DNA of 64,000 bases from Anaerolineaceae bacterium (GTDB lineage: Bacteria > Chloroflexota > Anaerolineae > Anaerolineales > Anaerolineaceae), in assembly GCA_029265815.1 (NCBI GenBank), contig JAJUGU010000004.1:124001-188000 (forward strand). Reading direction: 5' to 3'. The translations under genes and the position numbers were made by a program. Shown here in pieces: positions 31,466-35,589 of the stretch. Each line of letters opens with the position of its first letter. Within the stretch, counting starts at the first letter, position 1. Below the pieces are notes generated by a model that worked only from the letters and a program-made list of their open reading frames with translations, was not told where the DNA came from and ran no database searches.

Positions 31466-31516
31466 CCAGTGACTGACCGTTAGCATTGAAGCGTCAATCA
31501 AAATGCGGGAGTGTGT

Positions 31517-32794
31517 ATGTCAAAAAAGGATTTAAAATTTTACGAACTTACGCTCTTCGAGCGTCTGCAGCGTCTGGCGCAGGAAAGTGGAGTCGTACTT
31601 GAAGACCTTAAAGCCCTGAGCGGAAAAGATGGTTTAACCCCAGAACAGGCCGATCACATGGTTGAGAACGCAGTGGGGGTTTTTTCATTGCCGCTGGGAA
31701 TTGCCCGCAATTTTCTCATCAACGGCCGTACCGTGTTGGTTCCCATGGCGGTTGAAGAACCTTCGGTGATCGCTGGAGCATCCTTCATGGCCAAACTTGC
31801 CCGGGCTGGTGGTGGATTCCATGCCAAAGCAGATCCGCCTGAAATGATCGGCCAGCTCCAGCTGCTCGACCTGCCAGACCTCGAAACGGCTAAAAACGCC
31901 CTCGATGCCCACCGCAGCGAATTACTGGAGATGGCCGCTGCCATCGATCCCGTGCTTTCTCGCTTCGGCGGCGGTCCGCGCGATCTGGTGGTGCGTGAAA
32001 TTACCTCATCTCCAATTGGCGCTTTCCTTGTACTCCACCTCATTTACGATGTGCGTGACGCCATGGGCGCAAACGCCATTAACACCGCGCTTGAAAAACT
32101 GGCTCCGCGCGTGGCTGAGATCAGCGGCGGCAGGGTGCATCTGCGCATCCTGTCCAACCTGGCAGACCGGCGGCTGGCGCGCGCCGAATGTACTATCCCT
32201 CTATCTGCTCTGGGGTTCGACGCCTACAGCCCTGAAACCGTGCGCGACGGCATCATTGAAGCCTGGGCTTTTGCCGCCGCAGACCCCTACCGCGCCGCCA
32301 CTCACAACAAAGGAATTATGAACGGTATTGATGCCGTGCTGATCGCCACCGGCAACGACTGGCGCGCTGTGGAAGCTGGCGCACACGCTTACGCTGCAAA
32401 AGACGGAAAATACACCAGCCTCACCCGCTGGGAAAAGGACGAAGAGGGTAACCTTAAAGGCTCATTAGAAATGCCAATGGCTGTGGGGATAATCGGCGGT
32501 GCAACGCGCGTTCACCCTGCAGCGCAAGCCGCCTTAAAGTTAATGAAAGTAAAAACAGCATCCGATCTGGCGGAAATCATTGTTTCGGTCGGACTGGCAC
32601 AAAACCTGGCAGCCCTGCGCGCTCTTGCCACCGAGGGCATCCAGCGCGGCCACATGAGTTTGCACGCGCGCCAGGTGGCGCTTGCCGCAGGAGCCGTTGG
32701 CAGTGAGGTTGACCGCCTGGCTGATCAATTGGTTAAAGAAAAAGCGATCCGCTCTGATCGAGCGATAGAAATACTGAACGAGTGGAGAAAGTAG
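31517..32794 (+). CDS. mvaA: hydroxymethylglutaryl-CoA reductase, class II-type
   Basis: [59 protein letters not shown]. Confidence 0.94.
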
Positions 32795-32799
32795 GATTT

Positions 32800-33879
32800 A
32801 TGGAAAATAAGCAAACCACCAATACGAAACTACTGCGCACCAATCGTAAGACCGGGATCGTTGGTTATGGTGCTTACATCCCCCGTTACCGACTGCCGGG
32901 CAGCGAGGTGGCAATGGTTTGGACGGGTTCTGAAAAGGGTTCGCCGGTAAAAGAAAAAGCCGTTGCCGGTTTGGATGAAGATGTGATCACGATGTCGATC
33001 GAAGCCGCCCGCAACGCACTGCTGCGCGCAGATATCGACCCCTGCGAACTGCGTGCGGTGTGGATCGGATCTGAATCTCATCCTTACGCGGTCAAGCCCA
33101 GCGGCACAGTCGTCGCTGAAGCCATCGGCGCTTCCAACAACATCCAGTCTGGCGACTGGGAATTTGCCTGCAAAGCGGGAAGCGAAGCTATGGTGGCCGC
33201 GGTAGCCATGGTCGGCTCAGGTATGGCCAATTACGCACTGGCTATCGGAATGGACACCGCCCAGGGCAAACCCTCCGATGCCCTTGAATACACCGCCGGC
33301 AGCGGAGGAGCCGCCTATATCATCGGTCCGGCCGAAGAGTCTGTAGCCGAGATCGAGGCATCCTATTCCTTCGTCTCTGACACCCCCGACTTCTGGCGCC
33401 GTCCCGAGCAAAAATACCCCGAACACGGGCAGCGCTTCACCGGCGACCCGGCATATTTCCATCACATTGAATCCGCAGGAAGGACCCTGCTTGAAGAACT
33501 GGGGGCAAAAGCCTCCGATTTCACCTATGCCATTTTTCATCAACCCAACCCAAAATTCCCCATGAAGGCTGGTAAAGACCTGGGATTTACCGAAGAACAG
33601 ATCAAACCAGGTTTGCTCGTGCCCGTCATTGGTAACACCTACGCAGGTTCCTCCCTCGTAGGACTTTCCGCTGTGTTGGATATTGCCAAACCCGGCGACC
33701 GCATCCTGTTGGTTTCATTTGGCTCAGGAGCCGGTTCAGATGCCTTTGCTCTGACCGTGACCGACAGGATCACATCACGCCGCAACAGCGCTCCCACCAC
33801 GGCGGAATATATCGCCCGCCGCACCGAGATCAATTACGCCACCTACACCCGCTTCCGCGGCAAGATCGATATGGGATAA
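32800..33879 (+). CDS. hydroxymethylglutaryl-CoA synthase, archaeal type
   Basis: [28 protein letters not shown] (catalytic Cys), [15 protein letters not shown] (catalytic His). Confidence 0.93.
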
Positions 33880-33889
33880 GGAGGGTTTT

Positions 33890-35056
33890 ATGACCGATGT
33901 CGTGGTTGCGGGAATCGGACAGATCCCGGTCGGAGATCATTACTCCCTCAGTCTGCGCTCGATGGGCGTTCAGGCACTGAACAAAGCGCTGCATGATAGC
34001 GGAGATCTCAAACCTGATGCTCTTTATATTGGTAACCTGCTCGGATCGACCCTTTCGCACCAGGCTAACCTGGGAGCGTTGTTTACAGATTATGCCCGCC
34101 TGGGTCATATTGAAGCCTACACCACCGAAGCTGCCGGAGCTTCCGGCGCAGCCGCGCTGCGTGTGGCTTACCTGGCCATCCTAAGCGGCTATGCAGATAC
34201 CGTTGCCGTGCTGGGTGTCGAAAAATGGAGCGATGTCACCCGCGAAGAAGCAGATGCCTTGCTTTCGCAGGAGTTGGACTACGATTACGAGGCCATCCCA
34301 GGGCTGAACAGCGCAGGTGAAGCCGGGCTGCTGATGCAGCGCTACCTGTACGAATACAATTTACCCAAGGATGCACTTGCAGGTTTTCCAATACAGGCAC
34401 ACGCGAACGCACTCAACAACCCAAACGCTTTATTACGTAAATCCCTTACAGCCGAAACCTATGCCAGCGCACCCATGTTAAGTGACCCACTCAATCTTTA
34501 TGATGGTGCAGCTTACGCCGACGGCGCAGCGGCGCTCATCCTTACCCGGCGCGAACTTCTGCCTAAAAACTTTCCTCACCCGATCGTCAGGCTGCTGGGA
34601 TCAAGTGTCAGCGTGGATGCTCTTTCCTTGCACGACCGCCGTGACCCGCTGGCGTTCAATGCCGTTAAAACTGCGGTAGAGAGCGCTGCCCTCCAGGCAG
34701 GCATCATGCCTGTGTATACAGATGTATTCGAGCTGGATGATTCCTTTTCCATCTACGCTGCTCTTACCCTTGAAGCCTGCGGTTTTGCCGAAAAAGGCAC
34801 CGCCTGGCAGATGGCACGCGACGGACTGCTGGCACCCGGTGCAAAACTGCCAGCCATGACCATGGGCGGTTGCAAGGCGCGCGGCAACCCCATCGGCGCC
34901 AAAGGTGTCTACCAGGCCGTTGAAGCTGTGCAGCAGCTGCGTGGAGCGGCTGGACCAAACCAGGTCAAGAACGCACGCATCGCGCTCACCCTGGCCCTCG
35001 GCGGCCCCGCCTCCACTGCTATCGCGCATGTGTTTGACCGGGTGGAAACAAGGTAG
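33890..35056 (+). CDS. thiolase-like protein (archaeal/SCP2-type fold) lacking canonical catalytic residues
   Basis: Thiolase-superfamily layout, but EAAGASG instead of EAACASG, ELDDSF instead of ExHDxF, GNPIGAKG instead of GHPxGATG. Confidence 0.88.
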   Translation: MTDVVVAGIGQIPVGDHYSLSLRSMGVQALNKALHDSGDLKPDALYIGNLLGSTLSHQANLGALFTDYARLGHIEAYTTEAAGASGAAALRVAYLAILSGYADTVAVLGVEKWSDVTREEADALLSQELDYDYEAIPGLNSAGEAGLLMQRYLYEYNLPKDALAGFPIQAHANALNNPNALLRKSLTAETYASAPMLSDPLNLYDGAAYADGAAALILTRRELLPKNFPHPIVRLLGSSVSVDALSLHDRRDPLAFNAVKTAVESAALQAGIMPVYTDVFELDDSFSIYAALTLEACGFAEKGTAWQMARDGLLAPGAKLPAMTMGGCKARGNPIGAKGVYQAVEAVQQLRGAAGPNQVKNARIALTLALGGPASTAIAHVFDRVETR

Positions 35057-35187: not shown

Positions 35188-35589
35188 ATGGAAAATCCAC
35201 GCCACTGGCGCTTAAACAAACAAAGATATGCCCTCGTGGGTGAAGTCTGCCCCCACTGCGAGGCCAAGATCTTCCCCCCGCGCGACGTCTGCCCGGAATG
35301 CGGCGGCGAAGCCAAAAACCGCTTTGGATTCAGCGGCAAGGGCAAGGTGTTTTCATATACGATCATGCGTGATGCCCCGGCTGGCTACGAACACAACACG
35401 CCCTACACTGTGGCCATCGTTGCCCTCGATGAAGGCCCCATGGTCACCGCTCAGCTCACCGACCTTGGCAGCGAGAAGGTAGAGATCGGCATGCCCGTGG
35501 AAATGGTCACCCGCAAGATCCGCGAAGACGTGGAAAAGAAAGGCATGATCATTTACGGCTATAAGTTCAGGCCGGTGATGCAGGGGTAA
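35188..35589 (+). CDS. DUF35 Zn-ribbon/OB-fold protein (acyl-CoA-associated scaffold)
   Basis: CPHCEAKIFPPRDVCPECGGE rubredoxin-like Zn ribbon followed by OB domain; next to HMGCS/thiolase-like genes. Confidence 0.92.
   Translation: MENPRHWRLNKQRYALVGEVCPHCEAKIFPPRDVCPECGGEAKNRFGFSGKGKVFSYTIMRDAPAGYEHNTPYTVAIVALDEGPMVTAQLTDLGSEKVEIGMPVEMVTRKIREDVEKKGMIIYGYKFRPVMQG

Follow-up and report, generated by a model that had tools for sequence, protein, structure and literature searches.

What a thiolase is for once it has lost the residues with which thiolases work, and why it should still sit in the middle of a mevalonate operon, is the question raised by the stretch of DNA analysed here (64,000 nucleotides, hereafter the window), which comes from a genome of 2.58 Mb that is 99.4% complete and whose relatives among named collections belong to the Anaerolineaceae (Chloroflexota). 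The gene in question lies at 33890..35056 on the forward strand, where an ATG at 33890, with GGAGG a short way before it, opens a frame that stops at 35056, and it encodes a 388-residue protein with the archaeal acetoacetyl-CoA thiolase fold that we call a pseudo-thiolase. The initial annotation had reported that all three of its catalytic motifs are altered, and reading the codons directly bears this out: the expected EAACASG is EAAGASG (codon 83, GGA, Gly for the nucleophilic Cys, 34136..34138), ExHD is ELDD (codon 283, GAT, Asp for His, 34736..34738), and GHPxGATG is GNPIGAKG (codon 333, AAC, Asn for His, 34886..34888). In sequence alignments with 7yvy and 6esq, Gly83, Asp283 and Asn333 fall opposite the Cys and the two His, respectively, with no Cys at the positions neighbouring 83, and misalignment of these sites is unlikely because the single-chain AF2 model is a confident one (pLDDT 91.8, pTM 0.93).

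In fold the protein is recognizably a thiolase. Pfam Thiolase_N and Thiolase_C_1 both exceed their cut-offs, as expected of the two-halved fold, and NCBIfam returns thiolase domain-containing subfamilies, every one of them under its curated cut-off (the best, PRK06064, at 330 of 420 bits; AcCoTHIOL_METTL at 252 of 600); the nucleophilic Cys and GHP His that would mark an enzyme are both missing. Among solved structures the model is matched best by 7YVY, a Pyrococcus thiolase, and by the thiolase of 6ET9/6ESQ, the Methanothermococcus complex (TM 0.93-0.94 for 6et9/6esq), and the sequence matches to solved chains likewise rank 7yvy first, followed by 6esq_A. The closest solved sequence, Pyrococcus furiosus PFC_04095 (7YVY, ~40% identity), differs in that EAACASG, EVHD and GHPVGATG are all intact. 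Another archaeal thiolase-like protein, Sulfolobus tokodaii ST0096 (4YZO), also lacks Cys at the aligned position but, unlike the pseudo-thiolase, retains ELHD and GHPIGA.

The neighbouring genes, all on the forward strand, place the protein in a specific context. The operon opens with a class II HMG-CoA reductase (HMGR; 31511..32794; identified by Pfam and NCBIfam), which exceeds the cut-off of the 'degradative' NAD-type model TIGR00532 despite its biosynthetic setting. Next comes an archaeal-type HMG-CoA synthase (HMGS; 32800..33879), the sole TIGR00748 protein in the genome, whose frame opens at a GTG at 32782, with the ATG at 32800 the likelier start. Downstream of the pseudo-thiolase is a DUF35 linker protein (35188..35589; OB_ChsH2_C plus zinc ribbon), the sole PF01796 protein in the genome, with its zinc-ribbon cysteines and an RxWR N-terminal segment both present. 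The synthase appears catalytically intact by sequence: it had been said to keep its Cys and His, and we find Glu82, Cys114 and His237 in place and invariant among 10 diverse relatives, Glu82 and Cys114 being the residues named as catalytic in archaeal HMG-CoA synthase (PMC6392133). The best match of the synthase is chain I of 6ESQ (6esq_I, 403 bits, next family 212) and that of the DUF35 protein is chain E (6esq_E, 115 bits, next 54), so the three adjacent genes are one-to-one counterparts of a single solved complex. Adjoined by HMGS and DUF35 genes of the 6ESQ kinds, the pseudo-thiolase has the gene context of a thiolase/HMGS/DUF35 complex member, and the order HMGR-HMGS-thiolase-DUF35 is found repeatedly across families of the order.

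In the archaeal complex, according to two published accounts (PMC12329534, PMC6392133), it is DUF35 that brings thiolase and HMGS together, and in 6ESQ CoA is bound at an interface to which all three proteins contribute residues. Counterparts of the three Methanothermococcus proteins stand side by side in the window with the same folds and with the HMGS catalytic residues intact, whereas the window's thiolase subunit is without the Cys, the ExHD His and the GHP His, and should therefore be unable to start the channelled reaction. We believe, at a probability of roughly two in three, that the protein is a pseudoenzyme subunit that would hold the HMG-CoA synthase-DUF35 complex together and contribute its part of the CoA site that the proteins share. 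The pseudo-thiolase would no longer make acetoacetyl-CoA, and would have been kept because the assembly of HMGS with DUF35 needs a thiolase-fold partner. DUF35 would bridge the pseudo-thiolase and HMG-CoA synthase, the former providing one wall of the site where the synthase binds CoA and stabilizing the assembly, and acetoacetyl-CoA would be delivered by an intact archaeal-type paralogue, by a classical thiolase, or by both. A non-catalytic HMGS partner, with acetoacetyl-CoA made elsewhere, was the first of two alternatives offered by the initial annotation, and it is the one favoured by the operon linkage, the co-occurrence with HMGS, the intact synthase, the genome's two further intact thiolases and the drift of the catalytic site.

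The loss itself is conserved across Anaerolineae, as had been proposed for checking, and beyond them. A non-redundant Chloroflexota set of 154 sequences divides into 112 without the Cys ("dead") and 42 with it ("live"). Because the Cys defines both sets, its absence from the nucleophile site in all 112 dead copies is a given, although the residue that replaces it varies. The two histidines are independent positions: the GHP His is kept in 3 of 112 dead copies versus 41 of 42 live ones, and the ExHD His in 48 of 112 versus 42 of 42, having been lost in the window's lineage and in many others. The statement that all canonical residues are gone thus holds in the window and, clade-wide, is near-universally true of the Cys and the GHP His, but it does not extend to the ExHD His.

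Almost all of the 112 dead copies adjoin an HMG-CoA synthase. The Cys is replaced in each of the first 30 orthologous loci (60 related genomes), and in these same loci the thiolase gene adjoins HMGS wherever the contig extends far enough. Among 80 named HMGS loci, for which HMGS rather than the thiolase was the selection criterion, the Cys is missing from the nearby thiolase in all readable motifs except those of L119 and L127 (L081 is unreadable there). Carriers of a dead copy include the named Anaerolineaceae strains Levilinea saccharolytica KIBI-1, Longilinea arvoryzae KOME-1 and Leptolinea tardivitalis YMTK-2, and a dead HMGS-adjacent thiolase is also found in four families of the same phylum outside the window's class (f29, f39, f64 and f67). 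A literature search for catalytically dead thiolases in the mevalonate clusters of Chloroflexi found nothing relevant, and a study of the mevalonate pathway of Roseiflexus in eLife makes no mention of thiolase.

Several individual loci depart from the common pattern. The HMGS-adjacent gene of L119 (3455-4693) has Cys and ELHD intact with Asn in place of the GHP His, and may be a decay intermediate or a variant enzyme. A stand-alone relative of the live type in genome G057 (L045, 4465-6102, minus strand) is without the Cys (GAATAGG) and keeps EVHD and GHPVGA; the same genome additionally carries an orthologue of the HMGS-type pseudo-thiolase elsewhere. In the single-contig genome G031 (L044/L202), an HMGS-adjacent dead thiolase of ~40% identity sits on a very long branch, the neighbouring HMGS and DUF35 standing at ~67%.

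Where catalytic residues once stood, the dead copies carry a wide assortment: G/E/D/Q/N at position 83, D/H/S/T/C/W/Y/F/A/N at 283 and N/F/D/Y/L/C/S/E/H at 333. New chemistry should fix new residues, so positions that vary this freely argue against one shared by the clade, and the second alternative of the initial annotation, an enzyme whose new activity depends on other residues (an Ltp2/Sal-like aldolase or a CoA-ester hydrolase, for example), is weakened accordingly. Such enzymes do have a precedent in the steroid aldolases Ltp2/ChsH2-DUF35 and Sal/Shy-DUF35 (6OK1, 9MYR), thiolase folds without thiolase chemistry that, as in the window, have a DUF35 partner, and that carry out retro-aldol chemistry with Tyr-based motifs (PMC12329534). 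However, these aldolases are paired with hydratases, whereas the window's clade pairs with HMGS, a mevalonate enzyme, and conserves no such motif. The Tyr of YDxF, a motif taken from PMC12329534 and aligned to ExHD on the strength of the motif itself, is Asp283 in the window and is present in 6 of 112 dead copies. No single substitute is conserved clade-wide at any of the three sites, the Cys is absent throughout, and the positions conserved in the dead set but not in the live set number three, each an Ala. One sub-clade does have a fairly uniform EYHD...GFP and another set L[TS]DPHG...GD[VIA], and separate new chemistries may exist in these; as an explanation of the pseudo-thiolase, a new activity strikes us as improbable.

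Much of the protein has nonetheless been preserved. At least 93% conservation is seen in dead and live sets alike at 56 positions, including KxRG, HxN and E111-K112, and the fold, the C-terminal Gly pair (G371, G372) and KxRG persist in the dead copies. This retention is what could be expected if some weak chemistry or substrate docking continued without the Cys, for instance the binding of acetoacetyl-CoA delivered from outside and its handing on to HMGS. We think this very improbable, however, since changing the Cys to Ala or Ser abolishes the activity of the related PhlC (PMC6392133), and since F141, N145, Y267 and S373, further positions that are invariant in live copies, drift in the dead ones as well. 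The enrichment of lost positions in active-site loops is mild and was obtained with broad loop definitions (Fisher p 0.029), and no argument here depends on it.

The conservation of the dead copy is also evident in its rate of change. Its dN/dS is ~0.06, a value that indicates purifying selection and comes from close pairs only, genus-wide values being mostly unusable because dS is saturated. Ratios of its dN to that of other proteins, taken across the same genome pairs, are 1.93 for the live paralogue, 1.96 for HMGS and 2.64 for DUF35, and the approximately two-fold excess over the live paralogue or HMGS is what would be expected when a catalytic constraint is lifted. The faster rate, and nothing else, speaks for a pseudogene in decay or for an error of sequencing or assembly; we reject both, at a probability close to nil, in view of the frame's being open in ~110 relatives (the three named strains among them), the low dN/dS and what appears to be one old origin. 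In the final tree, from which the catalytic columns were removed and the long branches left out, one branch (support 87/95; present in 88% of bootstrap trees) separates all the dead copies from a live side that includes the archaeal thiolases. A first tree, in which the long branches were included and the dropped columns were one off from two of the catalytic sites, needed two changes for the dead copies. These sequences are most simply read as descending from a live ancestor that lost catalysis once, short of firm proof.

The distribution of dead and live copies among genomes bears on how the complex might be composed. Six genomes belonging to the window's order or class (G037, G051, G090, G138, G185 and G201) have a live copy next to HMGS. 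In the window genome and most of the Anaerolineales examined, a dead copy beside HMGS is accompanied by a live paralogue elsewhere. The dead copy is the only one in 13 genomes of other families that have the archaeal-type HMGS and are 98-100% complete, and G044 (92% complete) likewise has a dead copy and no live archaeal-type paralogue. In G040 (L167, contig C177, 2763-5733, minus strand), both kinds of thiolase share a single cluster behind HMGS and are separated by DUF35. Adjacency is not absolute, as in three MAGs (L120, L118 and L080) DUF35 comes directly after HMGS and the retrieved flanking sequence contains no thiolase; the full-length archaeal-type copy that these genomes have elsewhere is live.

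The genomes with both kinds of thiolase suggest that the dead copy and its intact archaeal-type paralogue might form a mixed oligomer, in which the dead chain would contact HMGS-DUF35 and the live chain would carry out the condensation, so that channelling would be preserved. The coexistence of the two copies in the window genome and many Anaerolineales is consistent with this idea, as are a live paralogue for which there is no separate HMGS or DUF35, the tandem in G040, and the HMGS-adjacent copies of the live kind in other genomes. The 13 near-complete genomes and G044, which offer the dead copy no such partner, show that a dead/live heteromer cannot be the general reason for its retention, and while one may apply where both copies exist, overall we consider it rather unlikely. 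The wider distribution accords with a structural requirement for some partner of thiolase fold: apart from MAGs with HMGS on a broken contig and MAG L087, which has no thiolase match, none of the archaeal-type HMGS genomes examined is without an archaeal-type thiolase of one kind or the other. G011, G041, G042 and G053 are without HMGS and without a dead copy.

A subunit of this kind presupposes another source of acetoacetyl-CoA. The search for a second thiolase that had been recommended turned up two, both intact by motif, and these are the only Thiolase_N proteins in the window genome besides the pseudo-thiolase. One is the live archaeal-type paralogue, which stands alone at C3:349003-350157 (EAACSSG, ELHD, GHPVGATG); the other is a classical thiolase at C2:121852-123069, ~1 kb before the start of the window (LCASG, GHPLG, CVGVG). 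A classical thiolase-like protein is present in 14 of 14 genomes tested, including dead-only ones. DXR was not found in the window genome and mevalonate kinase is present, which, together with the single HMGS and single DUF35, places the operon on the apparent sole isoprenoid route.

A dead subunit kept for assembly is not without parallel. The PhlABC acyltransferase (PpATase, 5M3K) has the same three-part architecture, and its HMGS-like subunit PhlA, in which Gly (Gly115) likewise replaces the Cys, is thought to serve assembly (PMC6392133). The roles are reversed, though: PhlABC combines a dead PhlA with a live thiolase, PhlC, and the window a dead thiolase with a live HMGS. The reaction differs as well. 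By this analogy, the window protein would be the mirror case of PhlABC, with a dead thiolase making the complex and its CoA site complete for a live HMGS. More broadly, the evidence seems to us evenly balanced on whether, in Chloroflexota, the thiolase of the channelling complex lost catalysis once, and early, and was kept as an obligate non-catalytic subunit completing the HMGS CoA site, with HMGS taking free instead of channelled acetoacetyl-CoA.

For these bacteria, the automatic labels acetyl-CoA acetyltransferase and thiolase would be misleading in an apparently indispensable pathway, and the source of acetoacetyl-CoA would lie outside the dead thiolase. The natural variants, with a live copy in cis, dead in cis and live in trans, dead only, or live in trans only, offer a means of separating assembly, CoA binding and channelling from one another, and L167 in G040 is a natural case for the mixed-oligomer question. 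Substrate channelling has so far been the explanation for the archaeal complex; that a large bacterial lineage retains the full architecture minus its first catalytic centre suggests that the assembly is valuable apart from channelling.
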